Of a stretch of 42,389 nucleotides of DNA, positions 11,225-42,389 are shown in pieces (the first letter of the stretch is position 1; the number at the start of each line of letters is the position of its first letter). The notes under the pieces were generated by a model. That model worked only from the letters and a program-made list of their open reading frames with translations. It had not been told where the DNA came from and made no database searches. A program made the translations under genes and the position numbers. Origin of the DNA: Synergistaceae bacterium (GTDB lineage: Bacteria > Synergistota > Synergistia > Synergistales > Synergistaceae); the NCBI GenBank assembly GCA_031268885.1, contig JAIRWR010000136.1, positions 1 to 42,389 on the forward strand, written 5' to 3'.

Positions 11225-11321
11225 CCCGTGACACATGTCCGGGATAAAAAGGTGTTTCCGTTGCCGCGCGGCGTAAACGTGCCGTCCGCGAATTATCATC
11301 TTCTGGTGGGAGGGGTTTTGA

Positions 11322-12476
11322 ATGATCAGAACGCTGACCGGGTATTCGGACGAGATCGACGATGTTGAGCTGGCTGTCTCCGAGATTCTCGAACACCTTA
11401 ATATCAAGGAAAATCTTCTGCGGAATTCCATAGGCATTATCGCGTGCAGCCTCGACTTCATCAAGTCCGGCGTGGTTCGCGCTCTTTGCGGGGAACTGCC
11501 GTTCGACGTCGTCGGAATCAACACGTTTGGCAGCGCCACGGCTTTGGGCGGAGGGTACATGATACTCTCCGTCGTCGTCCTGACGAGCGATGACGCGTCG
11601 TTCTCCGCCGGCGTCTCAAAGAGCGTCGAGCCGAACCCGAGACAGTCCATTGAGGAGCTGTACAATGGGATCGCTGCCGGCCTGGATGACGAGCCAAAGC
11701 TGATGCTGGCTATTCTGCCCTTCCTCCCCAGGACTTCAGGGGACACGCTCACGAAGTGCCTCGACTCGATATCGGGCGGAGTTCCGATCTTTGGCTTCGT
11801 GCCGTCCGATTACACGACCAACTTTAGACTGCCGCTCGTCATCTTCAACGGGGAGACATATCAAGACTCCTGCGCCATTGTGCTGCTGTCAGGGAGTGTC
11901 AGACCGAGATTTTTCTCATCCGCCATTCCGGAGGACAAAGTTCTCAAGCGAAAGGCGATCGTGACCGAGTCGGACGGCAATTACCTGAAGAGCATCAACG
12001 GCACGCTGGCTTCCGAGTTCATAGAATCGCACGGAATAATTGAAAGGGGCAATATATGGGGCTCCAAGGTGATTCCGTTTATCATAGATTTCAACGACGG
12101 CACACCGTGCATCGTTCGTGTATTGAACATGATAACGCGAGAGGGATACCTGATTTTAGGAGGTGAAGCGCAGGAGAACTCGACGATAGGCTTTGGCATG
12201 TTTGACAGCGACGATATCATAGACACCGCGTCCTGTCTCATCGACGCTATCTCCGAGACAAGCCATGACTGTCTGCTCATAGCCTCGTGCGTAACGAGAA
12301 ATTTTATATTGGAGCTTGACAATGATGCCGAGATCGAGCTCTTCCGTTCCCGACTCGGGAACGATTCACCATTCCTCTTCTTGTACGGCGGGGGCGAGGT
12401 CTACCCGGCGATATGCGGCGACAAAAACTGTTCAAACCGCTTTCATAATCTCACCCTGGTGTGCTGCGCGCTCTAA
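11322..12476 (+). CDS. FIST N/C domain sensory protein
   Basis: A stand-alone FIST protein (384 residues, no signal peptide or membrane span). FIST domains are proposed to bind small ligands such as amino acids and usually occur as input modules of kinases, cyclases or chemoreceptors. Supporting stretches are the N-terminal SIGIIACSLDFIKSGVV, the VVGINTFGSATALGGG and PIFGFVPSDY turns of FIST_N, and in the C-terminal half ILGGEAQENSTIGFGMFDS, DCLLIASCVTRNFIL and the closing FLYGGGEVYPAICG. ATG 11322 follows GGTGGGAGGGG at about 6 nt. The kinase gene starts 6 bp after its stop, strongly suggesting co-translation and a shared pathway. Here FIST is a separate subunit instead of being fused to the kinase; binding to it is inferred. 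Confidence 0.88.
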   Translation: MIRTLTGYSDEIDDVELAVSEILEHLNIKENLLRNSIGIIACSLDFIKSGVVRALCGELPFDVVGINTFGSATALGGGYMILSVVVLTSDDASFSAGVSKSVEPNPRQSIEELYNGIAAGLDDEPKLMLAILPFLPRTSGDTLTKCLDSISGGVPIFGFVPSDYTTNFRLPLVIFNGETYQDSCAIVLLSGSVRPRFFSSAIPEDKVLKRKAIVTESDGNYLKSINGTLASEFIESHGIIERGNIWGSKVIPFIIDFNDGTPCIVRVLNMITREGYLILGGEAQENSTIGFGMFDSDDIIDTASCLIDAISETSHDCLLIASCVTRNFILELDNDAEIELFRSRLGNDSPFLFLYGGGEVYPAICGDKNCSNRFHNLTLVCCAL

Positions 12477-12482
12477 CTTGTG

Positions 12483-14927
12483 ATGGACGGCGAGATGACA
12501 TCGGACAAAAACCCGGAAACCGACGAATGCGGTAATAATATAGACGACGAGCTGAGTCGTCTTCGAAGAGAGAACAAGAAGATGTCAAGGCAGATCAGCT
12601 CCATGCGTGATCTCATACAGAGGGTCAGGATCTCAACGGCCGCCAAAAAGACACTCGGCGAGATAATCTCAGCGGAGAAGTCGGATAACGAGATATACCT
12701 CGATCTGCTTCTAAAGAACAGCCCCGATATCATCCTCATGTTCGACAGCGTTGGAAGGTTCATCTACTGCACGGACGTCTTTCTAAAGGAGGCTGGCATT
12801 GTAAATTTCGGGCTCATCAGAGGCAGGACGTTTTCAGAGGTGTTCTGGCGGTTCATAGGCGCTTCGGAAACGGCGAGGCTGGCGGCGGTATTCAGGCAGT
12901 CCGTGACAGACAAGAAAAATATTGTCCTGGAGAGCGCTATGGACTTGAGTAAGGCCGGCAATCCCAGGAGCTATACGATCAACTTCACCCCCATGCTCGG
13001 CGCCGGGAACGAAATAATAGGCTCGATGGCGCTGTTCGTGGACCTTACGGATGTGCTGCAGGCCAAACACGCCGAGGCGGCATCCCGCGCGAAGAGTTCT
13101 TTCCTGGCGAGCATGAGCCATGAGATCCGTACTCCCCTGAACGCGATAATGGGCTTCAGCGAAGTTGAGCTGAGAAAGACTCTTCCGGACGAAACGCACA
13201 GCAATATAGAGAAAATATACAACGCGGGCTCCACTCTGCTCGGCATAATCAACGACATTCTGGACATCTCCAAGATCGAATCCGGGAAATTCGAGGTCAA
13301 CCCATCGAGTTATGACTTCGCGAACATGATCAGCGATACGATAAATCAAAACCTGGTGCGCATAGGAACGAAGCGGATAGAGTTCGAACCTGTCATTGGG
13401 GATGACATCCCATCCCGGCTGTTCGGCGACGAGATAAGGGTCAAACAGATCTTGAACAACCTTCTGTCAAACGCATTCAAATACACTGAGGAAGGACATG
13501 TCAGACTTAAAGTTTCATGCCTGACATTCAGCGACAATATAAGGCTTCAGTTTGCGGTTATCGACACCGGGCGAGGCATAAAACCGGAGAACATGGAGAA
13601 GCTTTTTTCAGAGTATAAACAGTTCGACACAGCATCGAACCGCAATATCGAGGGCACCGGACTGGGGCTCTCCATCTGTAAAAACCTCGTGGAGATGATG
13701 AATGGCTCGATCAGCGCTGAGAGCGTGTACGGGAAGGGCAGCACGTTTACCGCGACGATTCGGCAGGGCATCATCGACGCGGTTCCCATCGGCCCGGAAG
13801 TGGCTCAAAACTTACGGAGTTTCAGTTTCAACAATGGACAGAGGGAGAACGGCAGAAAGATCGTCAGAAAACAGATGCCATACGCGAAGGTCCTGATAGT
13901 AGATGACGTGACGACCAACCTGGATGTCGCGCGCGCTCTTCTCTCTCCGTACGGTCTCGCCATTCACTGTGTTTCCAGCGGCAGGCAGGCGGTCAGCGTG
14001 GTTCGCGACCGCAAAGATATATACGACGCGATCTTCATGGATCACATGATGCCGGATATGGATGGAATGGAGGCCGTCAGGATTATCCGCGACGAGATTG
14101 ACACCGAGTACGCGAGGACGGTGCCGATAATCGCACTGACCGCGAACGCTTTGAAGGGAAATTCGGAGATGTTCCTTGAAAACGGGTTTCAGGGATTCCT
14201 CTCAAAGCCCATAGACATAATAAAACTGGACGTTCTGCTCAACAGATGGGTGCGCGACAGCGGCAAGGACGAACAGTACAACGGGGCGGGTGAAACCAGC
14301 TCGGAACCGGAGGATGCGGAGCTCGGCGATAATGCCCCGCTGCCGGAAGGCTGGAGAGTGGATGGGGTGAATATCGAGGAGGGTATCCGGCGCTTTGGGG
14401 GCAGGAGGGCATATATGAAAGTCGTGAGGTCGTACATAGATCATACGCCGGCTCTGCTCGATGAGATGAGAACCGTGACCGGCGAATCACTTGAGAGATA
14501 CGCCATCACCGTGCACGGAATAAAGGGGGCCACCCTGGGCCTCTGCGCGAAAAGCGTCGGCGAGATGGCGGCTGAACTGGAGTCCGCCGCGAAAAAGAGA
14601 GATTTCGAGTTTGTGGCGGCGCGAAACGAAGTTTTTTTGAATGCCGCTGAATCCCTGATCTCAGGCTTCGAAGCCCTATGCGAGAGCGGCGGCGAATCAA
14701 AGCGCGACGCGAACACACGCTCCGAGCCGGATCAGGATCTTCTCGCGGATCTACTCTGCGCGTGCATCCGCTACGACGCGACTGCCATGGAGGAGATAAT
14801 GTCGAACCTCGAAAAGCACAGGTATGAATCGGGGGAAGATCTCGTGAAGTGGCTCAGAGAACAACTGGATAACCTGGAGTACGACAGTCTGCGCGAGCGG
14901 CTGGAGAGTTCAGGGTTCTCGCGTTAA
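12483..14927 (+). CDS. Hybrid histidine kinase: PAS-HisKA-HATPase-REC-HPt
   Basis: A soluble phosphorelay kinase of 814 residues. An N-terminal coiled coil (about 22-50) and a PAS domain (70-195) precede the kinase core: H-box [19 protein letters not shown] with His 213, N-box QILNNLLSNAFKYT, and G boxes DTGRGI and GTGLGLSICKN. The receiver (468-590) has Asp 520 in FMDHMMPDMDGMEAV, with ALTAN and SKP. The C-terminal HPt domain (about 630-725) has the phosphorylatable His 678 in TVHGIKGATLGL. The final 90 residues are acidic and helical. All three phosphotransfer sites are present, so it can run a full His-Asp-His relay, most likely to the HD-GYP receiver encoded first in the operon. ATG 12483 lies 6 bp past the FIST stop; a GTG one codon earlier is possible. 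Confidence 0.95.
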   Translation: MDGEMTSDKNPETDECGNNIDDELSRLRRENKKMSRQISSMRDLIQRVRISTAAKKTLGEIISAEKSDNEIYLDLLLKNSPDIILMFDSVGRFIYCTDVFLKEAGIVNFGLIRGRTFSEVFWRFIGASETARLAAVFRQSVTDKKNIVLESAMDLSKAGNPRSYTINFTPMLGAGNEIIGSMALFVDLTDVLQAKHAEAASRAKSSFLASMSHEIRTPLNAIMGFSEVELRKTLPDETHSNIEKIYNAGSTLLGIINDILDISKIESGKFEVNPSSYDFANMISDTINQNLVRIGTKRIEFEPVIGDDIPSRLFGDEIRVKQILNNLLSNAFKYTEEGHVRLKVSCLTFSDNIRLQFAVIDTGRGIKPENMEKLFSEYKQFDTASNRNIEGTGLGLSICKNLVEMMNGSISAESVYGKGSTFTATIRQGIIDAVPIGPEVAQNLRSFSFNNGQRENGRKIVRKQMPYAKVLIVDDVTTNLDVARALLSPYGLAIHCVSSGRQAVSVVRDRKDIYDAIFMDHMMPDMDGMEAVRIIRDEIDTEYARTVPIIALTANALKGNSEMFLENGFQGFLSKPIDIIKLDVLLNRWVRDSGKDEQYNGAGETSSEPEDAELGDNAPLPEGWRVDGVNIEEGIRRFGGRRAYMKVVRSYIDHTPALLDEMRTVTGESLERYAITVHGIKGATLGLCAKSVGEMAAELESAAKKRDFEFVAARNEVFLNAAESLISGFEALCESGGESKRDANTRSEPDQDLLADLLCACIRYDATAMEEIMSNLEKHRYESGEDLVKWLREQLDNLEYDSLRERLESSGFSR

Positions 14928-14954
14928 AGGTATTAAGGGGCTAATTGACAAAAG

Positions 14955-15197
14955 TTAACGGCATTTTTCGCATAAACCCCTATCGTCAATATCTCCATAG
15001 TCCTTGCAATAATAGCAAAATGAAAGTTCGGGGCCAATATATTCGAGAATTTCGTCGTCATTTCCATCGCTAACACATTTACAGGCTTCCAACAGAACCT
15101 CTCGTGACTTTTCTCTCCCTAGAAATTCAAAGACGCCATGAGAATGAAGCGCCTCTAAAAAATCACACATATCATGAGAACCCATATGGTTTGACAT
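14955..15197 (-). CDS. Small Cys-rich hypothetical protein with zinc-ribbon-like tail
   Basis: An 80-residue protein of unknown function. It looks real because AGGAGGGG sits about 5 nt ahead of ATG 15197 and because the sequence has structure: an acidic helical body and a C-terminal knuckle FCYYCKDYGDIDDRGLCEKC, that is CxxC, 12 residues, CxxC, as in zinc ribbons or rubredoxin-like knuckles. His and Cys residues also occur near the N-terminus (HMGSHDMCDF). The gene is visibly richer in A and T than both neighbours, and its codons (AAA, GAA, ATA) differ from theirs, which may mean it was acquired. It sits between a plus-strand kinase and the minus-strand CheX-like gene. No partner can be named. 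Confidence 0.65.
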   Translation of the reverse strand: MSNHMGSHDMCDFLEALHSHGVFEFLGREKSREVLLEACKCVSDGNDDEILEYIGPELSFCYYCKDYGDIDDRGLCEKCR

Positions 15198-15236
15198 AAC
15201 ATCCCCTCCTGCCTCTCAGCTGAAAACAATAATTTG

Positions 15237-15431
15237 ATGGACATATCTAAAGAATTCCGCGTAACCGAAGAAGAACCACAATCATTATACGATATCTACA
15301 GGCTGATGGCTATACACAATTATGTGAAATTTGATAAAAAACTCAGCGTTGGTAGGATTCAGTGGTTGTTTCAGCGGAAGAGCGGCGTGTCACAGCTTTG
15401 TCATCATCGCCGTCGGTCTCATGTCGAGTAA
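15237..15431 (+). CDS. Doubtful small ORF in an AT-rich patch
   Basis: A 64-codon frame starting MDISKEFRVTEEEPQSLYDIY, divergent from the Cys-rich mini-protein. The first half is AT-rich and reads like a protein start. The second half becomes basic and irregular as it runs into the 3' flank of the CheX-like gene. There is no good ribosome binding site. It may be the broken start of a lost gene; no family is recognised. Confidence 0.2.
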   Translation: MDISKEFRVTEEEPQSLYDIYRLMAIHNYVKFDKKLSVGRIQWLFQRKSGVSQLCHHRRRSHVE

Positions 15432-15438
15432 AAAAGAG

Positions 15439-15927
15439 TTATTCATAGACCGAAAGAATGAGGTACACCCTCCCGTCGTCGACAGCAAAAGGAATGGTGA
15501 AACTTTTGACGTTCGATTTCACGGTGGGAGACAATTTTATGTTCTCGCCGGACAGAAGCTGGGGCGGCGTGATATCGAGCCCCGATATGTTAGCGGTGAT
15601 CAGGGCTCTTCCGCTTATCATGTTAGTCAGCTCTCCAAGGACGCTCATGGACATAGCGTCGTCGGGATCAGCCTTTATTATGCCGCCGGTAAAGGCCCCG
15701 ACGTACGTTTCAAAGGACTTCATGTCCGCCATCAGCGCTGCGTTGCATCGCGTCCTCCCCCCTATGATACCGATGAAGGCCGCGACCCTGCTGCCGGGAG
15801 CATTCACGCCGGGCGTGACATCAGGCTTTACAAAGCGCGCGGCGATGCCGACGCCGTCGCTCACGGAAATAAGAGCACTCATATATGAGTTTACAAGTAT
15901 TGAGGGCAAAGTTACTTTTGTGGGCAT
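15439..15927 (-). CDS. CheX/CheC-like chemotaxis phosphatase domain protein
   Basis: A 162-residue single-domain protein of the CheX-like family, which removes phosphate from CheY-type receivers. The key segment is SMSVLGELTNMISGRALI: the conserved Glu and Asn spaced E-x-x-N in this helix form the phosphatase site of CheC/CheX/FliY. Typical flanking pieces include an N-terminal helix (ILVNSYMSALISV), IGGRTRCNAALMADM and the C-terminal strand pair GRVYLILSVYE. ATG 15927 is chosen; a GTG at 15939 lies only 1 nt from AGGAG and is unlikely. The gene is far from any chemotaxis cluster in this window, but near a kinase/HD-GYP operon with receivers that it might dephosphorylate; that link is speculation. 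Confidence 0.75.
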   Translation of the reverse strand: MPTKVTLPSILVNSYMSALISVSDGVGIAARFVKPDVTPGVNAPGSRVAAFIGIIGGRTRCNAALMADMKSFETYVGAFTGGIIKADPDDAMSMSVLGELTNMISGRALITANISGLDITPPQLLSGENIKLSPTVKSNVKSFTIPFAVDDGRVYLILSVYE

Positions 15928-16148
15928 TTTATATTCCACACTCCTACGATGCTAATGTGTCTTTTCCTTGCGCTTCGCTCCATTTTGATGGACTAATGGA
16001 GGTCAATAGCGCCGGATATCGGTCAAAATCATGTTCCAAAAATTAATATCCAAAAACTCTTTGATTAGGTATATTAACACAGTCCCAGAGTTTTGAGAAT
16101 AGCGCGAAGAGACGATTGAGCTGTTCTCTTGCGCCGCTTCCGACAAGA

Positions 16149-17963
16149 TCATATCATGATCTCATCTTCGAATCGCATCGAGTATAGTTGCAGGTAGTAT
16201 CCTTTTTTTCTGAGTAGATCTCTGTGAGTGCCACTTTCTATTATCTTGCCGTCCTTTACCACCAGGATCAGGTCCGCCATTTTTATCGTGGACAGGCGGT
16301 GGGCGATTAGAAACGACGTACGGCTCCGCAGGATCTTGGATATCGCGTTTTGAATCATCCGCTCCGTCTCCGTGTCTATCGACGATGTCGCCTCGTCGAG
16401 GACGAAGATCCTCGGGTTCGCAAGCACGGCTCGGGCGAATGATATGAGCTGCTTCTCTCCGGTCGAGAGGCGGTCCCCGCCCTCACCGACATCGGTGTCC
16501 GCCCCCATGGGTAGTTTAGCCACCGCTCTTTCCGCCGACACCAGCCGAATGGCCTCGTCTATCTCCTCATCAGACGCGTCCAGCCGTCCATAGCGGATAT
16601 TCTCCCTGATTGTCCCGGAGAAGAGGTGAGGGCTCTGGAGCACATAGCCTATGTTCGAGTGGAGCCACAACTGCGATCTCTCCCTGTAATCTCTTCCATC
16701 GATAAGAATTCTCCCAGACGTCGGTTCGAAGAACCTGCATACGAGATTGACGAGCGTCGATTTTCCCGCCCCGGTCTCTCCGACAAGCGCCACGCAGGTT
16801 CCGGCCGGTATATCGAGGCTGAAGCGTTCGAGCACATATTCGTCGCCGTCAGGGTATTTGAACGAGACGTCGTCGAATCTTATGTCTCCGATCAGCGGTT
16901 CCCAGTTCTGCCGCTTAGGATTGAAGCTGTCCCCGTATATCTCCACAACCTGGGGGGAGTCGGTGATCTCCGGAGCCTGAGCGAGGAGGGAGTCCACCCG
17001 CTCGATATTGGCCTGGGTGGCAGTGATCTCCGAGAAGATGCGGGACAGGTGCTGTATCGGCTCGAAGATATTTATGGAGTACGATACGAGAGCCGAGAGG
17101 GCTCCGAACTCAAGCGAGCCCGAGATCGAGTAGGAGCTGCCCCGGACTAGGATCAGCGCGACGGCGACGGCCCCGAACATCATCATCACAGGGGAGTATA
17201 TCGCGCTGACGGTAGCGGAGCGGACCGTGTCGCGGTACATTCCTCCCGCGATAGCGTCGAACTCGCGCGAGTTCTCGTCCTCTATGACGAGGGTCTTCGA
17301 CGTTCGGGCTCCCAGAATGCCCTCGTTGAACGAGCCGGTCATAATGGCGTTCGTGCGCCGCACCTTCCTGTTCAGAGTCAGAATTCTGTTCTGAAAGATC
17401 CTCGTAACGACCGCCATGACCGGTATCATTATCGCTATCCATATTCCGAGTCTAGCGTCTAAGATCAGCATCGAGATCACGGCGAATACGACGTACGAGA
17501 GTCCCCACATCACATCGACAAGACCCCATGCCACAAACAGGCCTATCCTGTCCGTGTCGGACATCACGCGGGCAATCATATAGCCGACCGGCGTCGTGTT
17601 ATAGTACGAGAGTGACAGCTTTTGCAGATGATCGAAGCAGGCTTTTTTGAGATCCCTGGAAAAACCCATCTCCACCCTTATCGCGAGTCTCGTAAACAGC
17701 ACAGTGGAGACGAACTGCGCGAGCATGACGGCAACTCCCAACAGCGCCGCGCGAGAGACGCCGTCCGAGGCGCCGGGCACTATGAACCGGTCTATTATGT
17801 ACTTCTGATATAACGGAATGAGCACGTCGATGAACGAACTGGCGATCATGAGGAGCGCTATCCTGATCAACATGCCTGTGAAAGGCCGGAAAAACCGCCC
17901 TATCAAGAACCACGCTCCGAGGCTGAAAGGCTTATTGTAACTCTCTTCGTCGTAATACAGCAT
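16149..17963 (-). CDS. ABC exporter half-transporter with catalytic Walker B (heterodimer subunit)
   Basis: A 604-residue type IV ABC exporter half: six predicted membrane helices (about 20-330) and a C-terminal ATPase. Walker A is GETGAGKST, and Walker B is IFVLDEATSSID with the catalytic Glu present. The switch His is in LIAHRLSTI. Its signature motif is LSTGEKQ, which departs from LSGGQ. The partner subunit, encoded 1 bp upstream, shows the reverse: canonical LSGGQ but Asp in place of the catalytic Glu. This is the arrangement of TM287/288 and BmrCD, where one ATP site works and one is degenerate. Substrates of such pumps are drugs, lipids or peptides; none can be chosen here. Being one base after its partner's stop, it is surely co-translated. 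Confidence 0.95.
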   Translation of the reverse strand: MLYYDEESYNKPFSLGAWFLIGRFFRPFTGMLIRIALLMIASSFIDVLIPLYQKYIIDRFIVPGASDGVSRAALLGVAVMLAQFVSTVLFTRLAIRVEMGFSRDLKKACFDHLQKLSLSYYNTTPVGYMIARVMSDTDRIGLFVAWGLVDVMWGLSYVVFAVISMLILDARLGIWIAIMIPVMAVVTRIFQNRILTLNRKVRRTNAIMTGSFNEGILGARTSKTLVIEDENSREFDAIAGGMYRDTVRSATVSAIYSPVMMMFGAVAVALILVRGSSYSISGSLEFGALSALVSYSINIFEPIQHLSRIFSEITATQANIERVDSLLAQAPEITDSPQVVEIYGDSFNPKRQNWEPLIGDIRFDDVSFKYPDGDEYVLERFSLDIPAGTCVALVGETGAGKSTLVNLVCRFFEPTSGRILIDGRDYRERSQLWLHSNIGYVLQSPHLFSGTIRENIRYGRLDASDEEIDEAIRLVSAERAVAKLPMGADTDVGEGGDRLSTGEKQLISFARAVLANPRIFVLDEATSSIDTETERMIQNAISKILRSRTSFLIAHRLSTIKMADLILVVKDGKIIESGTHRDLLRKKGYYLQLYSMRFEDEIMI

Positions 17964-17964
17964 C

Positions 17965-19800
17965 CTAGTCCTCCGCCTCCGAGATCTCGCTCTCGACGAT
18001 CCGCTGCATGTCGCTGATTCGCCGGTATATACCGTCCCGAGCGAGCAGTTCCGCCGGTCCTCCCATCTCGGCGATCCTCCCGTCCTCCATCACGATCACA
18101 GTGTCGGCGCCGGAGAGCGACGTCATCCTGTGCGATATTATAATAGTCGTCGCGCTTCCGGCGCGGCGCGCGAGCGCCGCCCGTATTTTCGCGTCCGTCT
18201 CCGCGTCCACTGCCGAGAGGGAGTCGTCGAAGATCATTATGGGGGGCGAGTTTAAGACAGCGCGAGCGATTGCCACTCGCTGCTTCTGCCCTCCGGAGAG
18301 CGTGACCCCCCGCTCTCCTACGAGAGTGTTATACCCCTGTGGAAACTTCATGATGGCGTCATCGACCCGCGCGACAGCCGCTGCCTCGCGAAGCTCGTCA
18401 GGAGAACGGCCGGGTGTGAGAGACGCGATATTTTCCCCGATGGTCCGCGAATAGAGGAACGGCTCCTGCAGGACTATGCCTATGTTCTGCCTCAGCCATC
18501 TCCTCTTGTAGCGATTTATGTTGATCCCGTCGATTCGAATCTCCCCGCATCCCTCCTCCAGGTTGTAGAGCCCGCACAGGAGATGCGCCACTGTCGTCTT
18601 GCCGGAACCGGTGGTCCCCAGGATGCCGAGCGTGGTTCCCTGTCGGATAGAGAAGGAGATGTCGCGCAGCACTGGCGTGTCGCCATACGAGAACGAGACT
18701 CCGTCGAATTCGATGCCGCCGCTTATGGGCGTCTCGATCGCGCCGGGAGGGTCGGACTCTGCCGGCGAGCCGAGTATCTCCACCAGACGGCCAAGCGATG
18801 CTCTCGCTTTGCTGGCCTCGGAGAGTACCCTTCCAAGTCCCCTGACGGGCCAGATGATCATGGAGTTATATGTTAGAAACACCATGAACTCGCCGACCGT
18901 TATATTTCCGGAGGAGGCCCGGATCGCGCCAAAGGCACAGATAGTTATCATCTGCATTCCAGTCAGGAAATCCCCCACTCCCCAGAAGGTGCTCAGCATA
19001 TTTCCAAGCTTGACCCACAGGTCGGCATAGATCTCGTTCTGGCGTCCGAATCGGCCTACCTCGTAGGCCTCCCGCCCGAACGCCCGGACGACCCTGACCC
19101 CGGTGAAGTTCTCCTGCGCCACCGCGAGGAGCTGGCCCTCTGCCTCGTCCACAGGGAGGAATCTATCCGCGTTAGCTCGCAAAAACAGAAAGGAGTAGAG
19201 GAATATCACCAGCAGAAATACAAACGAGGCAAGCGACAGCGGGACGTCGACGCGAAACAACATGACGTACGCAAAAAACACAAACGCGACCGCTCGCACG
19301 ATCTCGATGAGCTGTGTGAAAAGGAAATTACGGATGATCTCCACGTCCGATGTGCACCTCTGGACTATATCGCCGGTCTGTATCGCGATATGCCATTCAT
19401 ACGGCAATGACTGAATGTGAGAGAAAAGCCTGCTCCGAAGGCGTAGGATTAATCCTTCCGCGCCCTGGGCCAGCATCCGCTGGTACAGATAACCGCAAAT
19501 TCCCCCAAACGCCGCAATAGCCAGCACTACCACACCCGCCGCCTCGATGTTCTTCCGCAGCGACTCCGTAGTTCTCTCCACGCCAAGTAAAACCAGAATA
19601 TTCGGGATGACTGGAATATCATAAACAGGCAGACCTCTTACAACGTTGTCTACCACAAAACGAACCACCTGCGGAAGCAGGAAGCCGCAAAAAACCGATA
19701 TCAGCATAAACAGAACAGCTGCCGAGTAAAGCGCCCTGCTGCCGTCTGAAACATTCCACAGCAACGCGAGCCTCGGTCTTTTTCTTTTATCCAGAAGCAT
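17965..19800 (-). CDS. ABC exporter half-transporter with degenerate Walker B (heterodimer subunit)
   Basis: A 611-residue half-transporter with an N-terminal six-helix membrane domain (about 25-335) and an ATPase domain from about 370. Walker A is GTTGSGKTT; the signature LSGGQKQRVAIARAVL is canonical. Walker B ends IMIFDDSLSAVDAETD, so Asp replaces the catalytic Glu. The ATP site built from this Walker pair and the partner's LSTGE should therefore bind but hardly hydrolyse ATP. The site built from the partner's Walker motifs and this LSGGQ should be the active one. The start is ATG 19800 with a weak GAG upstream. A perfect TATAAT (19860-19855 on the minus strand) lies about 55 bp ahead, without a clear -35. 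Confidence 0.95.
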   Translation of the reverse strand: MLLDKRKRPRLALLWNVSDGSRALYSAAVLFMLISVFCGFLLPQVVRFVVDNVVRGLPVYDIPVIPNILVLLGVERTTESLRKNIEAAGVVVLAIAAFGGICGYLYQRMLAQGAEGLILRLRSRLFSHIQSLPYEWHIAIQTGDIVQRCTSDVEIIRNFLFTQLIEIVRAVAFVFFAYVMLFRVDVPLSLASFVFLLVIFLYSFLFLRANADRFLPVDEAEGQLLAVAQENFTGVRVVRAFGREAYEVGRFGRQNEIYADLWVKLGNMLSTFWGVGDFLTGMQMITICAFGAIRASSGNITVGEFMVFLTYNSMIIWPVRGLGRVLSEASKARASLGRLVEILGSPAESDPPGAIETPISGGIEFDGVSFSYGDTPVLRDISFSIRQGTTLGILGTTGSGKTTVAHLLCGLYNLEEGCGEIRIDGININRYKRRWLRQNIGIVLQEPFLYSRTIGENIASLTPGRSPDELREAAAVARVDDAIMKFPQGYNTLVGERGVTLSGGQKQRVAIARAVLNSPPIMIFDDSLSAVDAETDAKIRAALARRAGSATTIIISHRMTSLSGADTVIVMEDGRIAEMGGPAELLARDGIYRRISDMQRIVESEISEAED

Positions 19801-33053: not shown

Positions 33054-35231
33054 ATGAACGATGAGAAGACCAGGTGCTCAGACTCACAGGACATGACGGC
33101 TCAGAATTCAGCGGCGGTCTCTCCGGGCGTCGACTTCAGCGAGTTTCCCCCGACGAACTACGACGAGTGGAAGGAAGCGGCTGTTGCGGCGTTAAAAGGA
33201 GCCCCGTTCGAAAAGAGCTTGTTCACTCAGACGTATGAGGGCATAAAGCTGGAACCTCTGTACACCGCCGAGCACACAAAGGACCTGGAGTTTGTCAAAA
33301 CCATGCCGGGAGAACCGCCCCTGGTCCGCGGGACGCGAGTGTCCGGTTACATCGCCTCACCGTGGGAGATAGCTCAGGAGAGCGATGCCCCGTCCGCGGC
33401 GGAGGCGAACGAAATCACGGTTCACGACTTCGAGCGGGGGGCATCCACGATTACGCCACGCCTGGACGAAGCGACGCTGGAGGGAGCGGACTCGAAATCC
33501 CCGGCGGACGGAGGCGGGGTTCCCATCTCCAGCCTGAGTGACGCTATGGAGTTTTTGAAGGGAATTGATATATCGAAGCACTCGTTGCACGTTCATGCCG
33601 GAACATCATCCGCCGCTCTGCTCGGATTTTTCAGCGAGGCGGCCAACAGAAGCGGCTTCTCCGTATCGGACCTGAACGGGTGTATAGGGGCCGATCCCAT
33701 AGGTTTGTACCTGAAGCGCGGCGCCATCCCCAGAGGTCTCGGCCGGATATTCGACGAAATCGCTCACACAATCCGCTACGCGAAGTCAAACGCGCCGAAA
33801 CTCAGGACGATTCTCCTCGGCGGCAGCATATATCACAACGGCGGTGGCAACTCCGTACAGGAGGTCGCCTACGTGATGGCCTCGGCCATAGAGATCGTCC
33901 ACGCGATGCGGGATCGCGGCATAGACATAGACGCGGTCGCGGAGCGTATTCGATTCGAGTTCTCGCTCGGCTCCAATTTCTTTATGGAGATAGCTAAGAT
34001 AAGGGGCGCGCGGCTGATATGGTCCCGGATAGCCGAATCCTTCGGCGGGACAGGCGAGTCCCTGGAAGCCAACATCTTCGGCCGCACATCGAGCTTTACA
34101 AAGACCGTCTACGACCCATACGTGAACATCCTGCGCAATACCACCGAGGCGTTTTCTGGCGTAGTCGGAGGCCTGGACGGGCTCACCGTGGCGCGCTTCA
34201 ACGAGGCGACGCACGCCGGGGACGAGTTCTCACGCAGGATATCCCGCAACGCGCAGATCATGCTTCAAAACGAATTTCACCTTCTGCAGCCGATTGATCC
34301 CGCCGGCGGGTCGTGGTACATCGAATCCCTCACCGATACATTCGCGAAGAAGGTCTGGGAGGTAATTCAGGAGATCGAGGGCAAGGGAGGAATAATCGCC
34401 GCTATCAAAGAGGGCCGGGTACAGGCCGCTGTGGACGACATCCTTCAGCAGCGCTTCAAGAAGCTGGCTGGGCGCTCTGACCGCGCGGTGGGGACCAATA
34501 TGTATCCCAACACTGGAGAGACTCCGCTGCGTTTCGCCGAGCCGGATGTCAAGGCTACCGCGGCAAAGCGAGAGAAAGAGCTGCAAAAGGCGAAGTCCGA
34601 GAGATCGGATGCCGAGATTGGGACAAAACTCGAATCCATCTCGAAAGATTTAGGCGGAGATCTGATAGAGCACATTATCGGGGCGGCCAGATCAGGAGCC
34701 ACAATCGGAGAGATAAGCGGAGCGCTTGGAGCGGGCAGCGATCCAGAGCCCAAGATTCAGCCCTTGCGCGAACATCGCTGGACTGAGCAGTTCGAGGCGA
34801 TGAGAAAGCGCACCGAGGATTACAGGGACAAAACAGGCGACAACGTCAAAATCTTCCTGGCCAACATGGGGCCGATTCCTCAACACAAGGCGAGGGCCGA
34901 TTTCATAACCGGATTTATGGAGGTCGGCAACTTCAAGGTGCTCAAGAACGATGGGTTCAAGACCGTCGAGGAGTGCGCGGAGGCGGCAGTGGCAAGCGGC
35001 GCGGACTTGGCCGTTATCTGCTCCACCGACGACACCTATCCAGAACTCGCGCCGCCGCTCGCCGAGAGCATAAAGAAGAAGAAGTCCTCCATGAAGGTCT
35101 TCCTGGCAGGCGCTCCGGCGGAGGAGTTCAAGCAGTCGTATGTCAACGCCGGTGTGGACGATTTTATAAGCGTCCGTTCGAACTGTCTCGCGGTTCTGAC
35201 CGACCTTCAAAAAGCAAAGGGGATGATGTAG
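33054..35231 (+). CDS. mutA: Methylmalonyl-CoA mutase small (beta) subunit
   Basis: The non-catalytic partner of heterodimeric methylmalonyl-CoA mutase, which interconverts succinyl-CoA and (R)-methylmalonyl-CoA. Its 725 residues have the same two-domain plan as the large subunit: a TIM barrel (about 30-560; GSIYHNGGGNSVQEVAYVMA, FEFSLGSNFFMEIAKIRGAR, DPAGGSWYIESLTD) and a C-terminal flavodoxin-like domain. In that domain the B12-binding DxHxxG is replaced by PIPQHKARADF, so it does not bind cobalamin in the normal way, as is usual for this subunit. ATG 33054 has GGGGAGG 7 nt upstream. Its TAG is followed at once by the ATG of mutB. Confidence 0.96.
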   Translation: MNDEKTRCSDSQDMTAQNSAAVSPGVDFSEFPPTNYDEWKEAAVAALKGAPFEKSLFTQTYEGIKLEPLYTAEHTKDLEFVKTMPGEPPLVRGTRVSGYIASPWEIAQESDAPSAAEANEITVHDFERGASTITPRLDEATLEGADSKSPADGGGVPISSLSDAMEFLKGIDISKHSLHVHAGTSSAALLGFFSEAANRSGFSVSDLNGCIGADPIGLYLKRGAIPRGLGRIFDEIAHTIRYAKSNAPKLRTILLGGSIYHNGGGNSVQEVAYVMASAIEIVHAMRDRGIDIDAVAERIRFEFSLGSNFFMEIAKIRGARLIWSRIAESFGGTGESLEANIFGRTSSFTKTVYDPYVNILRNTTEAFSGVVGGLDGLTVARFNEATHAGDEFSRRISRNAQIMLQNEFHLLQPIDPAGGSWYIESLTDTFAKKVWEVIQEIEGKGGIIAAIKEGRVQAAVDDILQQRFKKLAGRSDRAVGTNMYPNTGETPLRFAEPDVKATAAKREKELQKAKSERSDAEIGTKLESISKDLGGDLIEHIIGAARSGATIGEISGALGAGSDPEPKIQPLREHRWTEQFEAMRKRTEDYRDKTGDNVKIFLANMGPIPQHKARADFITGFMEVGNFKVLKNDGFKTVEECAEAAVASGADLAVICSTDDTYPELAPPLAESIKKKKSSMKVFLAGAPAEEFKQSYVNAGVDDFISVRSNCLAVLTDLQKAKGMM

Positions 35232-37427
35232 ATGAGCGATAAGAATGTGCGCCCTGACTTCACGAAGATAGAACTCAATAAATCCGTATCGCGCGACGCG
35301 TCGGCGAGGAAGCGCTGGGAGGAGAGATTCCAGCGGGAGACAGGCAAGTCCCCGGCGGAGATGCTCGACCACACGATGGAACGGATAGACCTCAAACCCC
35401 TGTATACGGAGGCTGATTACGAGGGCTTAAAACACCTGAACTACATGCCGGGGCTGACTCCGTATCTGCGCGGCCCGTATCCGACGATGTACGTGTCGAG
35501 GCCGTGGACGGTGCGCCAGTATGCCGGCTTCTCCACCGCGGAGGAGAGCAACGCGTTCTACAGGAGAAACCTGGCGGCAGGGCAGAAGGGGCTGTCCATA
35601 GCCTTCGACCTCGCCACGCACAGAGGGTACGACTCGGATCACCCCCGCGTCTCCGGCGACGTTGGAAAGGCCGGCGTGGCCGTCGACTCGATACTGGACA
35701 TGGAGATACTCTTCTCTGGCATCCCTCTCGACCAGATGTCCGTCTCCATGACGATGAACGGCGCCGTTCTTCCAGTGATGGCGTTCTATATACTGGCGGC
35801 GGAAGAACAGGGCGTGGACAGGTCCGTCCTGAACGGCACCATCCAGAACGACATACTGAAGGAGTTCATGGTCCGCAACACGTACATATATCCGCCGACT
35901 CCTTCCATGAGAATAATCGGCGATATCTTTGCGTTCACATCCAAATACATGCCCAAGTTCAACTGCATAAGCATATCCGGCTATCACATGCAGGAGGCCG
36001 GCGCGACGGCAGACATCGAGATGGCGTACACCCTGGCCGACGGATTCGAGTATCTTCGCACCGGCGTCAATGCCGGGCTCTCAATCGACAAATTCGCGCC
36101 TCGCCTGTCGTTCTTCTGGGGCATAGGCAAGAATTACTTCATGGAGGTCGCTAAGATGCGCGCGGCCCGTATGTTGTGGGCTAAGATAGTCAACACATTC
36201 GGTCCTAAGAACCCGAAATCGATGGCGCTTCGTACTCACTGCCAGACCTCCGGCTGGAGCCTCACGGAACAGGACCCGTACAACAACGTCGAGCGTACCT
36301 GCATTGAGGCCATGGGCGCGGCGCTGGGTCACACGCAGTCCCTGCACACGAACGCACTCGACGAGGCGATAGCCCTGCCGACGGACTTCTCCGCGAGGAT
36401 CGCCCGCAACACTCAGCTCTACATCCAGGATGAGACAAGGGTCTGCAAGGTCATCGACCCGTGGGGCGGATCGTACTACGTCGAGGCGCTGACGGACGAG
36501 CTGGTCCGCAGAGGCTGGGCGCTGATTCAGGAGGTGGAGGATCTCGGCGGAATGGCGAACGCCATAGACACCGGCCTTCCAAAGATGAGGATTGAGGAGG
36601 CTGCGGCCCGTATGCAAGCGCGCATCGACTCAAAGTCCGAGAAGATCATCGGAGTGAACAGCTTCAGGCTGGAGAAGGAGGACCCGATAGAGATACTGGA
36701 GGTAGATAACTCCGCCGTAAGGCAGGCCCAGCTCGCCAGGCTGGAAAAACTCCGCGCGATAAGGGATCCCGAAAAGGTACGCCAGGCTCTCGACGCCATT
36801 ACTCACTGCATGGATACGGGCGAGGGTAATCTTCTCGAACTCGCGGTGGAGGCGGCTCGCGTTCGTTCGTCGCTCGGTGAGATATCCGACGCGATCGAGA
36901 AGGTCAGCGGACGTCACAAGGCCATTATCCGTTCGATCTCCGGCATATACAGCAGCGAGTTCTCCGATGAGGATGTCATAGAAGAAGTTCGCCGCATGAC
37001 TGACGAATTCGAGCGCAGGGAGGGTCGCCGTCCAAGGCTCATGGTCGCCAAGATGGGACAGGACGGGCATGACAGAGGCGCTAAGGTCATCGCGACGGCG
37101 TTTGCCGACATGGGATTCGACGTAGACATGGGGCCGCTCTTCCAGACGGCCGAAGAGGCGGCTCAGGACGCGGTCGACAACGATGTCCACGTCATAGGAA
37201 TGAGTTCTCTCGCGGCAGGACATAAGACTCTGCTGCCGCAGTTGGTCGACGAGCTTAAAAAGAGAGGCCGCGAGGACATTATGGTCGTGATAGGCGGAGT
37301 CATTCCGGCGCAGGACTACGACTTCCTGCGATCTCACGGAGCTGCCGCGATATTCGGTCCCGGGACGGTGATTCCGGTTGCCGCGAAAAAAGTGATGGAA
37401 GAGCTGAACGAGCGTGTCCTCGTTTGA
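35232..37427 (+). CDS. mutB: Methylmalonyl-CoA mutase large (alpha) subunit, catalytic
   Basis: The adenosylcobalamin-dependent catalytic subunit, 731 residues. The TIM-barrel part has the family block [36 protein letters not shown] and [16 protein letters not shown]. The C-terminal B12 domain has the lower-ligand motif D611-x-H613-x-x-G616 ([11 protein letters not shown]), followed by GLFQ-type [10 protein letters not shown] and [10 protein letters not shown]. The gene begins directly after the mutA stop (TAG-ATG) with GGGGATG ahead, and its end overlaps the GTG of meaB, so the three proteins should be made together. In fermenters of this sort the enzyme links succinate and propionate metabolism; the epimerase and carboxylase genes are not in the window. 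Confidence 0.98.
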
Positions 37428-38673
37428 TATAAGCAATCCGATGGAGCGTGAGCCGGAGGCGCGCGCTCCATCGGACGGCTCGGTCATTTCAGCCGATGAA
37501 CGCGCGAACGGGGGGGCTTCGTCAGCCCCCCGGTACGCGACAACCCGGCCCGAGTGGACGCCTGAAGAAGCCGGTTCCGAATTCGCGTCGAGGGTGATGG
37601 GCGGCGTGGACGACGCGCATGACGGGCTGACCGAGTCGTCAGCGGCTCCCAGGGTTGTGGTATTGAAGAGAAGGAGTCTCTCCCTGGGCGACTATGTACA
37701 AGGCATCCTCGCTGGCGACAGGATGATCCTTTCGAGGGCGATCACGCTGGTGGAGAGCAACGCGCCGGCACATTTCGAGATGGCTCAGCTCGTTATGCGC
37801 GAGGTGCTGCACAAGACCGGAAATTCCATCCGCGTTGGGATCACCGGAGTCCCGGGCGCCGGCAAGAGCACGTTCATAGAGTCCCTTGGCTGCGATCTCT
37901 GCAAGAAGGGGCACAACGTGGCGGTTCTCGCTGTGGATCCGAGCAGCAGCGTCAGCCGGGGGAGCATTCTGGGCGACAAGACCAGGATGGAGAACCTGGC
38001 CAAGCAGCCGAACGCCTTCATTCGTCCCTCCCCTTCCGGCGGCACTCTCGGCGGTCTCACCCGCAAGAGCCGTGAAACGCTGCTCCTGTGCGAGGCGGCC
38101 GGTTACGATGTGATACTGGTCGAAACCGTAGGAGTCGGGCAGAGCGAGACGACGGTCCGATCGATGGTCGATTTTTTCCTGTTGATCGTGATAACAGGCG
38201 CCGGCGACGAGTTACAGGGGATGAAGAAGGGCGTTATGGAGCTTGCGGACGCTATTCTGGTAAACAAAGCGGATGGCGGCAACGAACTCAAGGCACAGGG
38301 TACGAGAGTGGAATATGACAGAATTCTCCACTATCTGAGACCGGCGACCGAGGGTTGGGCGACTCACGCTTACACATGCTCGTCCACTACGGGCAAGGGT
38401 ATAAACGAGATATGGGGCGTCGTCATGAAGTTCATGGAGACGGTCAAGGGGTCAGGCGTCTTTGCTGAACGCCGCAAACAACAGACTCTTTCGTGGGTAT
38501 ATTCGATGGTCGAGGATTATCTGAAACAGGAGTTTTACAGATGTCCGGCGGTAGAACAAAACCGCGCCACCATAGAGAAGCGAGTTGTCCAGGGAGATCT
38601 TTCCGCAACCGGCGCGGCATCCGAGTTGATCCGCCTGTTCGAGGAGAGCCCGGCAAAAAAAACGCTGGCCTGA
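37414..38673 (+). CDS. meaB: MeaB-type G-protein chaperone of methylmalonyl-CoA mutase
   Basis: A SIMIBI-class GTPase (ArgK/MeaB) that guards and reloads the cobalamin of methylmalonyl-CoA mutase. The P-loop GVPGAGKST begins at residue 145. [20 protein letters not shown], the conserved [17 protein letters not shown] and [10 protein letters not shown] follow, and NKADG is the base-specificity motif. The family's usual start ([22 protein letters not shown]) appears only at about residue 94, so there is an N-terminal extension of some 90 residues, Ala/Ser/Glu-rich with a [16 protein letters not shown] segment. GTG 37414 overlaps mutB by 14 bp; ATG 37441 is an alternative that lacks a binding site. 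Confidence 0.95.
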
Positions 38674-38712
38674 TCCGCCGCGACATTTTCATGATGGGCA
38701 AACTCATTTTTT

Positions 38713-38748
38713 AGAGACAAGCCGCAGGGAACGCGGGCTTGTCTCTTT
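38713..38748 (+). terminator. Rho-independent terminator of the mutase operon
   Basis: Arms 38713-38723 and 38736-38746 form an 11-bp perfect stem (AGAGACAAGCC type) with a 12-nt loop and a short T run. It lies 40 bp past the meaB stop. Confidence 0.82.
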
Positions 38749-38813
38749 CGATACGTATATGCGTTTTATACACATAACGCGAACAGTGTATTTCACATTT
38801 CGAAGAGATGGAG

Positions 38814-39359
38814 ATGACAAAATTCATGATTATCGACTCCCACAGAGCGGAAGAACTGGCCGTCTTAAATCTGGCCTATGGCGTCTGCGCGGCTCTGCGC
38901 ACCGCCCCGAAAGCCTGCGCCATCGACCACCTGGAGACCGCGATACTGACAGGCGATGACAAGGAGAGACTGACTGCGGAGATGAGACACATCGGTAGAG
39001 GTCTCGGCGAAGAAGGAAACGTTTTCATCAGGGACGCCGGTAACGTGGACGCAAGCGGGGCCGTGGTAATCGCTGGCGCTAAGTATGAGACGAGAGGCCT
39101 CGGGAAGAAGTGCTCCCTCTGCGGTTTCGACGGATGTGGCGCGTGCTCAGAAGCCGGCGCCGTATGCGTATTCACACCGCTTGATCTTGGCATAGCCCTC
39201 GGTTCCGCTGTGGCCATGGTAGCGGATAACAGAGTGGACAACAGGATAATGTTCACCATCGGCAAAGCCGCCGCGTCACTGGGACTTCTGGGCGAGCACA
39301 AGTTGATTATGGGGATACCGCTGTCCGTTTCAGGAAAGTCCCCATTCTTCGATAGGTAA
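38814..39359 (+). CDS. DUF2148 ferredoxin-domain protein
   Basis: A 181-residue soluble protein of the DUF2148 family, annotated elsewhere only as containing a ferredoxin-like domain. The Cys set CSLCGFDGCGAC, followed by a further Cys in AVCVFTPLDLGIA, could hold an iron-sulfur cluster. The N-terminal helix (EELAVLNLAYGVCAALRTAPKA) and the closing DNRIMFTIGKAAASLGLL are characteristic. ATG 38814 is preferred over ATG 38808 because GAAGAG is then spaced 6 nt away. It is common in strict anaerobes; its partner and reaction are unknown. It is separated from the mutase operon by a terminator, so it is a separate transcript. Confidence 0.88.
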   Translation: MTKFMIIDSHRAEELAVLNLAYGVCAALRTAPKACAIDHLETAILTGDDKERLTAEMRHIGRGLGEEGNVFIRDAGNVDASGAVVIAGAKYETRGLGKKCSLCGFDGCGACSEAGAVCVFTPLDLGIALGSAVAMVADNRVDNRIMFTIGKAAASLGLLGEHKLIMGIPLSVSGKSPFFDR

Positions 39360-39487
39360 CGGTGACCGAGACATTCGACAATCGCGCGAGAACGCGCGCC
39401 GCCGCTCGAAGTCTGGCAGGGCGTCCGCTTCCGTGAATTCGATGCCCATGAGCGGCAGTATTACGTAAATCATGGGAGATGTGTGAA

Positions 39488-40045
39488 ATGGAACGGGAGA
39501 TCTTTCTTGCCGGAGGCTGTTTCTGGGGCGTGGAGCGGTATATGTCCCTCCTGCCGGGGGTCGCTGAGACTGAGGCCGGTTATGCTAACGGCTGTACCGA
39601 GCGGCCGAGTTACGAGGATGTCCGCTCTGGTAAGACGGGACATGCCGAAACGGTCCGCGTCCGTTACGACGACTGCCAGATCGGGCTGTCGTTTCTCTTG
39701 GAGCGCTTCTATGACGCGATAGACCCCACATCAGTGAATCGACAGGGCGGCGACATCGGCAAACAGTATCGCAGCGGGATTTATTACGCGAACAAGCAGG
39801 ATCGCGAAATCATCGAATCGTCGCTGAGAGATCTGCAAAAACGAGTGACAAAACCTGTCGTAGTGGAGTGTGAGCGATTGGAAAATTTCTGGCCGGCGGA
39901 AGAGTATCATCAGAGATATCTGGAAAAGAACCCGGACGGTTACTGCCATATACCTGATTCATTATTCGTCAGAGCCGAGATGGCGGACGACAATGCGACA
40001 TTGAAGAGCCGGCGCGGCGCTCCGCGCCCTCCGGACACTCCGTAG
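39488..40045 (+). CDS. msrA: Peptide methionine sulfoxide reductase MsrA
   Basis: This repairs the S-epimer of methionine sulfoxide in proteins, using thioredoxin. The active-site motif GGCFWG is near residue 11, followed by the family pieces ETEAGYANG, SYEDVRSGKTGHAETVRVRYD, DPTSVNRQGGDIGKQYRSGIYY and AEEYHQRYLEKNPDGYC. The 185 residues include a short, Arg/Pro-rich end (SRRGAPRPPDTP) that adds to the normal fold. ATG 39488 has GGGAG 9 nt upstream; ATG 39479 would touch that site and is unlikely. The 128-bp gap before it carries a short repeat also found at 26680. Confidence 0.95.
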   Translation: MEREIFLAGGCFWGVERYMSLLPGVAETEAGYANGCTERPSYEDVRSGKTGHAETVRVRYDDCQIGLSFLLERFYDAIDPTSVNRQGGDIGKQYRSGIYYANKQDREIIESSLRDLQKRVTKPVVVECERLENFWPAEEYHQRYLEKNPDGYCHIPDSLFVRAEMADDNATLKSRRGAPRPPDTP

Positions 40046-40162
40046 ACACGTTCGCCAGCGGGTTGTTCCAGCGGGCGCGCGGCGTTATGTTGTATAATTG
40101 TCATGTTACGGCGCTTTCATGAACGCGGAACGAAAGCCCCAGAAAATGGGAGTGAGAAGGAT

Positions 40163-40963
40163 ATGCCGTGGAGTTGGGCAGCACTGATGCCGCACCCTCC
40201 GATAATAGTTCCGGAGGTCGGCAGGGGAAGGGAGAGAGATGCCTCCGCTACCGTTGGGGGTATCGATAAGATTATGAAGAGGCTTGGAAAGATGGGCAAG
40301 CCAGATCGAATATTGCTTGCCTCGCCTCATCAGCCGTACATTTCTGGCTGCCTTGCCATCAATAAAACCGGATTTCTCAAGGGCAGCTTTGCGTCGTTCG
40401 GCGCGCCATCCATCACATTCGACCTGAGAACAGACTTGGATTCGGCGGACTCCCTGCGCGGGTTTCTGTCCGCGGCTGGCGTGCCGGTCTCCTTCAGCGA
40501 GTCCGCGGACATGACGCGCGACCAGGGCTCGACGGTTCCGCTCTATTTTTTGAAGAAGGCTTACGGAGAACTGCCCCATGTAGTGTTGGTCAGTCCCATA
40601 GGCTTGGATGCCGCATCCGCGCATGGGCTTGGGCAAGCGCTAGCTAGATTTGACGATGGCTGCTCATGGGGATTTATCGCGAGCGGGGATCTGTCGCATC
40701 GTTTGAAACCCGGTGCTCCGGCTGGTTTCAGTCCAGACGGCGGGAGATTCGATTTGGCTGTGGTCGAGTCCGTTGGTAAGTGTGATGCCTCGATAATCCT
40801 CAACCTCCCCGAAAGAGTCGTCGAAGACGCTGGCGAGTGCGGAATGCGCTCAGCGCTCGCTCTGGTGGGATTGGTTTCGAGTCTTGGCGGCAAAATCGAC
40901 GTTCTATCGTATGAGGGGCCATTCGGCGTCGGTTACTGTAATGCCCTGTGGATTAAGGAGTAA
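40163..40963 (+). CDS. LigB-superfamily (class III extradiol dioxygenase-like) protein of the AmmeMemoRadiSam set
   Basis: A 266-residue protein of the LigB/MEMO superfamily. It begins WAALMPHPPIIVPEVGRG, with the metal-ligand-like His of MPHPP. It continues with ILLASPHQPYISG, a His-containing strand-loop, and FIASGDLSHRL, where another His lies; these positions form the metal site in LigB-type dioxygenases. In many bacteria this domain is fused to AMMECR1; here it is a separate gene ending 5 bp before AMMECR1. ATG 40163 has AGAAGGAT directly upstream; the frame itself opens at 40103. A perfect TATAAT at 40093-40098 may be its -10. The substrate of this conserved system is unknown. Confidence 0.85.
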   Translation: MPWSWAALMPHPPIIVPEVGRGRERDASATVGGIDKIMKRLGKMGKPDRILLASPHQPYISGCLAINKTGFLKGSFASFGAPSITFDLRTDLDSADSLRGFLSAAGVPVSFSESADMTRDQGSTVPLYFLKKAYGELPHVVLVSPIGLDAASAHGLGQALARFDDGCSWGFIASGDLSHRLKPGAPAGFSPDGGRFDLAVVESVGKCDASIILNLPERVVEDAGECGMRSALALVGLVSSLGGKIDVLSYEGPFGVGYCNALWIKE

Positions 40964-40968
40964 GCGGT

Positions 40969-41514
40969 ATGAGTGAGAGAAAAGACGCAACCGCTCCCCA
41001 TCCATACGTCGTTCTGGCGATGGAGACCGTGCGGCGTCACCTATCCGGCGAACCTCCGTTAAGAGGCGGCACGGACATTGACCGGGACTCCTCTCTCTGG
41101 GAGATAAAGAGGGCGTGTTTTGTGTCGATAAAGACTCTGTCGGGCGATCTCAGGGGATGTATAGGGACAATCAAGCCTCAATACACATCCCTGGACCTGG
41201 AGATTATGGCCAATGCGGTCTCCTCCTCGACTAGGGATCCGCGGTTTCCTCCGATGACCCTGGCGGAGATGTCCGGAGTTGCCTTCTCGGTGGATGTCCT
41301 GAGCAGACCAGAGAGAGTCTCCGGCATGAGCGACCTTGACCCGCTCAAGTGGGGGATAATAGTTTCGAAGGGCACGAGAAGAGGCGTTCTACTCCCCGAT
41401 CTTGAGGGGGTAGATACCGTGCGGGCGCAGATCGAGATAGCGTCACGGAAGGCGGGTATCTTTAGCCTGGACGGCATCGCTATCGACCGCTTCTTGGTGG
41501 ACAGGCACAGATAA
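40969..41514 (+). CDS. AMMECR1-domain protein (AmmeMemoRadiSam system protein A)
   Basis: A 181-residue AMMECR1-fold protein. The hallmark LRGCIGTI (with the conserved Cys) is present at about residues 62-69. Also typical are the start HPYVVLAMETVRRHL, AVSSSTRDPRFPPMTLAEM, and the C-terminal KGTRRGVLLPDLEGVDTV followed by ARKAG-like ASRKAGI. ATG 40969 has AAGGAG 8 nt upstream, overlapping the stop of the LigB-like gene region. It forms a three-gene unit with its LigB-like and radical-SAM neighbours. The family is conserved to humans but its enzyme role is not established. Confidence 0.93.
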   Translation: MSERKDATAPHPYVVLAMETVRRHLSGEPPLRGGTDIDRDSSLWEIKRACFVSIKTLSGDLRGCIGTIKPQYTSLDLEIMANAVSSSTRDPRFPPMTLAEMSGVAFSVDVLSRPERVSGMSDLDPLKWGIIVSKGTRRGVLLPDLEGVDTVRAQIEIASRKAGIFSLDGIAIDRFLVDRHR

Positions 41515-41515
41515 G

Positions 41516-42244
41516 ATGGGATATAACGTGGATGCGGCTTTCGCGATGATCGAGCCTCGGTGGTGGAAGCCGGAGGGGCGTGGAGCGGCGCGATGCGGAG
41601 TCTGTGTTCACGGTTGCCTCATATCTGACGGGAAGGGTGGAATGTGCGGGGCGAGGTTCTTCTCATCCGCAGATGGTTTCTCGTCCCCCTATCTCGGCAG
41701 GTTTATATCGACCGCGATAGATCCGGTAGAAAAAAAACCGCTCTATCACTGGAGGCCAGGAACAAGGATCATGTCACTGGGGAGCGTCGGCTGCAATATG
41801 ATCTGTGCCTTCTGCCAGAACCATTCAATATCGCACCCCGCCAGACGCCCGCCGCCCGGCGAACTGAACGGGATGAGTCCGGAGGCTTTGGCTGTCCTGA
41901 CGAAGAAGAACGGGCTCTCGTCAGTCGCTTACACATACAACGAACCGGCGCTTCAAGGGGAATATATAGTGATTGCCGCCCATGTGCTGAACGACTCCGG
42001 CATAGCTTCCGCGATCGTCACCAACGGTATCTTTTCGCCGGCATTCAGCGGCGAAATCTCGCGGGTCATAAGCGCGGCCAACGTCGATGTCAAGACGTTC
42101 GCCAAGGCCCGCGAACAACGCATCGCCCAGGAACGCGCGATTCGCGCCGAGAAGGTCGCTAAAATGCAACAGGCGACGCGAGGGGACGCGAGCTCGGCGC
42201 CGACCGGTGTTGCGCCCCTGAGGACTGACGAGGAGACGGAGTAA
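41516..42244 (+). CDS. AmmeMemoRadiSam radical SAM enzyme, truncated with foreign-looking tail
   Basis: The radical-SAM member of the cluster. The N-terminal Cys group (Cys 27, 30, 34, 44; CGVCVHGC, GGMCGAR) is typical of this subfamily. The cluster motif GCNMICAFCQN (Cys 93, 97, 100) binds the 4Fe-4S-SAM centre, and AYTYNEPAL and AIVTNGIF are also family features. Homology runs to SAANVDVKTF (about residue 195). After that, where the family continues with a conserved barrel to about 300-340 residues, this frame has an Arg/Ala/Gln-rich tail (AKAREQRIAQERAIRAEKV..) ending at 242. The DNA from about 42100 is more GC-rich and uses CGC for Arg far more than its neighbours. Truncation by recombination or an assembly join is likely. 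Confidence 0.85.
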   Translation: MGYNVDAAFAMIEPRWWKPEGRGAARCGVCVHGCLISDGKGGMCGARFFSSADGFSSPYLGRFISTAIDPVEKKPLYHWRPGTRIMSLGSVGCNMICAFCQNHSISHPARRPPPGELNGMSPEALAVLTKKNGLSSVAYTYNEPALQGEYIVIAAHVLNDSGIASAIVTNGIFSPAFSGEISRVISAANVDVKTFAKAREQRIAQERAIRAEKVAKMQQATRGDASSAPTGVAPLRTDEETE

Positions 42245-42389
42245 ATCGACGCATATATCCCCGTGACGTGCGCCGCATTCGTTCAATCGCTCCCCGGGCG
42301 AGCTCCGCGCCATCTCACTAGTTTGTCAGCTCCGGTGAGACCGTGGCAACCCGAGGGACTATAAAGCGATGCGCGTGCGGCAAGCACAA
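42245..42389. other. GC-rich right edge, no gene seen
   Basis: The last 145 bp after the chimeric radical-SAM frame show no ribosome binding site, tRNA or recognised repeat. Composition resembles the tail of that frame, not the rest of the window, so both may belong to the same inserted or mis-joined segment. Confidence 0.4.

Follow-up and report, generated by a model that had tools for sequence, protein, structure and literature searches.

Results

Gene content at the right end of the window

The window spans contig C132 (42,389 bases) in full and ends where the contig ends. The draft genome to which this contig belongs totals 2,436,370 bases in 136 contigs, with a listed completeness of 96.8% and contamination of 0.01%. 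Judged on the radical-SAM gene described below, the nearest named relatives are Synergistaceae MAGs (76% and 68% identity). At the right end of the window, a MEMO-like gene and an AMMECR1 gene stand alongside the first part of an AmmeMemoRadiSam radical-SAM gene, which gives way to a short, unrelated tail (Table 1). The MEMO-like gene has no NCBIfam match at E 0.001; its assignment comes from Pfam, and the gene order around it is the same in two loci of the same genus, L043 and L044. Both MEMO and AMMECR1 were matched within the flanks of 52 of the 80 loci from named genomes that we compared.

Table 1. Coordinates of the features discussed, on the window (C132) unless another contig is given
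Feature	Position	Strand	Basis
MEMO-like gene (LigB family, PF02900), AmmeMemoRadiSam set	40103..40963	+	Pfam 89.4 bits
AMMECR1 gene	40969..41514	+	PF01871; TIGR04335 106.4 bits, above the cut-off of 99
AmmeMemoRadiSam radical-SAM gene, N-terminal two thirds (195 codons)	41516..42100	+	TIGR04337, PF04055, identity to L005
Unrelated tail at contig end, probably chimeric	42101..42389	.	No relative found; window end is contig end
Radical-SAM C-terminal half, 97 codons	C108:53396-53686	minus	90% identical to the same-genus genome G001

Further upstream (33054-40045), two methylmalonyl-CoA mutase genes and MeaB lie in a row in what looks like an ordinary arrangement. A DUF2148 gene and then a peptide methionine sulfoxide reductase gene separate MeaB from the AmmeMemoRadiSam genes.

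Family similarity ends between about 42100 and 42113

The last open reading frame of the window, 41516-42244, encodes 242 amino acids and ends at a stop codon. Residues 15-204 match positions 2-188 of the 349-position TIGR04337 profile at 136.2 bits. This is below the whole-protein cut-off of 220 bits, as is the 44-bit match of the C-terminal part described below, the two halves having been scored separately. The radical-SAM domain itself scores above its threshold (PF04055, 35.3 bits against a cut-off of 29.5), and the CxxxCxxC motif is present in the translation as CNMICAFC.

Comparison with the gene of the same genus at locus L005 locates the switch. Each of the 17 bins that lie before base 42101 has 9-14 of 15 nucleotides identical, and each of the seven bins from 42101 onward has 4-6 of 15; the fall across the junction itself is from 14/15 to 4/15. 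These values place the switch at about 42100, after residue 195. A conserved tyrosine five residues past the last shared phenylalanine sets the other limit. All 16 aligned relatives have it. A motif script located the place in 67 of the 80 named loci (not in the other 13), of which 66 have the tyrosine and one has phenylalanine; the tail has glutamate. The absence of the tyrosine indicates that the break lies before about 42113. A reading made from the sequence alone had described a sharp end of family similarity near residue 195 and an in-frame tail running to a stop at 42244, and both features are borne out. The same reading held that no frame continues the missing part of the barrel. Indeed, a six-frame search with TIGR04337 found nothing further in the window, so the barrel is continued in no frame of the tail.

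The C-terminal half lies at the end of another contig

Three places in the organism's own genome were matched in the six-frame search: the window gene (profile 2-189), the minus strand of contig C108 at 53387-53680 (profile 189-290, 44 bits), and a weak match on C98 (profile 126-285, 21.1 bits). On C108 (53,686 bases), the C-terminal half starts directly at the last base and runs inward for 97 codons to a stop. These 97 residues have a single place in the genome, and they match the ends of radical-SAM genes in 14 of 21 genomes, the organism's own included. The missing C-terminal part of the barrel, which the sequence-only reading had proposed to look for elsewhere, is encoded by the genome, and this holds independently of whether C132 is mis-joined.

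The two parts fit each other closely. In an alignment with L005, DVKTF closes the window part, and the C108 part starts 18 bases further on, in the same frame. Six residues lie between these two points in all 16 aligned relatives, and the gap is again six in all 30 of the named-locus rows whose C-half match starts at the first residue. No 10-base word is common to the compared ends of C132 and C108; the contigs therefore do not overlap there, which counts against a single gene split over the two. Positions 291-349 of the profile have no match on C108. Their absence is normal for this group, since the whole L005 gene, an open frame of 297 residues, ends at the same place as the C108 part.

Neighboring genes support the same placement. 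The order in L043 and L044 is MEMO, AMMECR1, radical-SAM and then an NlpC/P60-type gene. On C108, an NlpC/P60-type gene follows the C-terminal half; it is 73% and 61% identical to its L043 and L044 counterparts and carries the Pfam families N_NLPC_P60, SH3_6, SH3_7 and NLPC_P60. This gene was matched in eight of the 80 named loci.

Both halves resemble parts of a gene under selection, as indicated by third codon positions, which hold 85 of the 131 differences from L005 in the N half and 35 of the 45 in the C half. Amino acid identity to L005 is 77% for the N half and 90% for the C half. The closer C half counts against a split gene and could hint at a different source for that half, but rows L048-L053 and L055 are skewed in the same way.

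Intact relatives

The N and C halves lie in a single open frame in 78 of the 80 named loci, a count in which the identical mirror copies L056 and L057, both on one contig, figure as two; the other two loci, L072 and L095, run off contig ends. These relatives bear directly on the possibility that the 242-residue frame encodes a true enzyme variant whose C-terminal tail is new. The frame does stay open for 47 codons past the switch before it stops. However, the tail occurs in no relative searched, the standard C half is present in the genome beside its usual neighbor, and every named locus that does not run off its contig keeps the standard C half. We consider a variant enzyme the least credible of the explanations, and very improbable.

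Three further observations concern the relatives themselves. L056 and L057 (JAISYM010000085.1, 47379-55948 and, reversed, 10473-19042) are identical stretches of 8570 bases mirrored exactly about the center of a 66,420-base contig. Judging from these two stretches, the contig may be one long inverted duplicate, which would likely be an assembly artefact. The contigs of L072 and L095, whose matches end at 4534 and 4522 respectively, stop in the same short part of the gene, at query residues 188 and 190, possibly by chance or because the spot assembles badly. Finally, contigs of Candidatus Adiutrix MAGs (L054, L070 and L080), and likewise several Desulfovibrio MAGs, carry radical-SAM genes that share 51-57% identity with the Synergistaceae gene; gene transfer, binning error and slow divergence are alternative explanations.

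The tail has no relative in the collections searched

The tail is 289 bases long. Searched separately, as the sequence-only reading had recommended, it has no second copy in its own genome, where no match is longer than 27 bases. Its DNA has no match in 148 other genomes at E 0.001 (at most five candidates scored per genome), and its protein has none in 99 other genomes at E 0.1. The tail is likewise absent from the 80 named loci, so that relatives sharing it, which would have made it a genuine variant, were sought and not found. In 18 genomes chosen from those loci (nine Desulfovibrio, three Synergistaceae, three Adiutrix and three others) there was one 27-base match (90%, E 0.003), which we dismiss as chance. 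Searches of plasmids by tblastn, and of phages and E. coli genomes by blastn, gave no match, and blastn against plasmids gave two, one of 28 bases (E 0.3) and one of 22 (E 0.9). The 47-49 residues of the tail belong to no Pfam, PHROGs or NCBIfam family, and no Rfam family matches 41400-42389. Six 8-residue tail patterns matched 595 stretches of genome_contigs and 51 of viral_contigs, with no confirmed relative among them, and an exact 22-base pattern had no occurrence in viral_contigs. A 10-base inverted pair (41917-41926 and 42223-42232) was taken as chance.

A change in base composition and arginine codon choice at the junction, also claimed from the sequence, is weakly supported. The GC content of the tail is 0.637, against 0.546 for the rest, a level attained by 8 of 279 overlapping host windows. 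CGC makes up four of its six arginine codons (173 of 664 in 20 open reading frames of the window), a share reached by one of 206 overlapping host segments, although it is based on just those six codons. In contrast, GC3 is ordinary, its level being reached by 24% of 869 host segments. The order-3 Markov score is equally unremarkable at z -0.49, with lower values in 87 of 279 host windows. The change does persist to the window edge, but only because the contig ends 289 bases later. Hence, we do not take composition as proof of foreign origin; a foreign origin is suggested mainly by the absence of relatives. The ordinary Markov score and GC3 mean that the tail could be DNA of the same organism, from elsewhere in its genome, and they too count against the split-gene view.

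Discussion

The complementary halves of the radical-SAM gene lie at the ends of two contigs, with neighbors as in intact relatives. We propose that they are one gene split over C132 and C108, with a short, probably chimeric end on C132; on the sequence evidence, we put the probability of this explanation at roughly 0.92. On this view, a contig break would run through an ordinary and probably complete AmmeMemoRadiSam radical-SAM gene belonging to a Synergistaceae-type bacterium: codons 1-195 would come from the end of C132, the last 97 from the end of C108, and about six codons would be in neither. Adjacency of the two contigs in the cell is what their ends and neighbors lead us to infer. The tail would be no part of the gene, its 47-codon open frame would be accidental, and it would most likely be a chimeric extension of the contig end that arose in assembly or in the library.

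The sequence-only reading had offered two possibilities: a gene broken by insertion or recombination, so that the system would lack a working radical-SAM enzyme, or a mis-joined contig. A system without its enzyme is unsupported, because this genome does encode the C-terminal half, in frame at the end of C108 and with the expected downstream neighbor. The mis-join is the better supported of the two, as an inference from the halves and the tail rather than as a proven event.

Could the break at codon 195 instead be a real insertion or rearrangement, in the organism or in one strain, with C132 and C108 as its two flanks? Both contigs stop at one and the same point of the gene, as they would around an unassembled insert, and the Markov score of the tail is compatible with the host genome. 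However, C108 opens directly with codons of the gene and carries no inserted sequence, and about 18 bases are missing rather than duplicated. For a transposon-like insertion, element sequence is expected on the other flank as well, usually with a small duplication. Neither element sequence on both flanks nor duplicated target bases were found, and such an insertion is disfavored for that reason. Moreover, the tail matches none of the protein families searched (Pfam, PHROGs and NCBIfam), its phage and plasmid matches never exceed 22-28 bases, and its forward frame, if coding, would be cut at the junction and lack a start, unlike the end of an intact element. We regard an insertion or rearrangement as improbable. 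A form of the same idea, in which some cells carry an event that swaps the second half of the enzyme for the tail and the break reflects strain variation, seems to us no likelier.

This genome very probably has a complete AmmeMemoRadiSam set, and a false call of a system lacking its enzyme is removed. More generally, when a gene ends oddly only a few hundred bases from the edge of a contig, the ends of the other contigs in the genome are the first place to look.

Chimeric contig ends are a general kind of artefact in draft assemblies. The end of C132 resembles one in its abrupt loss of homology 289 bases before the end, in a draft of 136 contigs, and in having what appears to be its true continuation at the end of another contig. 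It differs from an identified chimera in that the collections searched yielded no source for the tail. The gene itself resembles the AmmeMemoRadiSam radical-SAM enzyme (TIGR04337), with the window part matching the first half of the profile, positions 189-290 matched on C108, and MEMO-like and AMMECR1 genes directly upstream. From that enzyme it differs only in the manner of its assembly.
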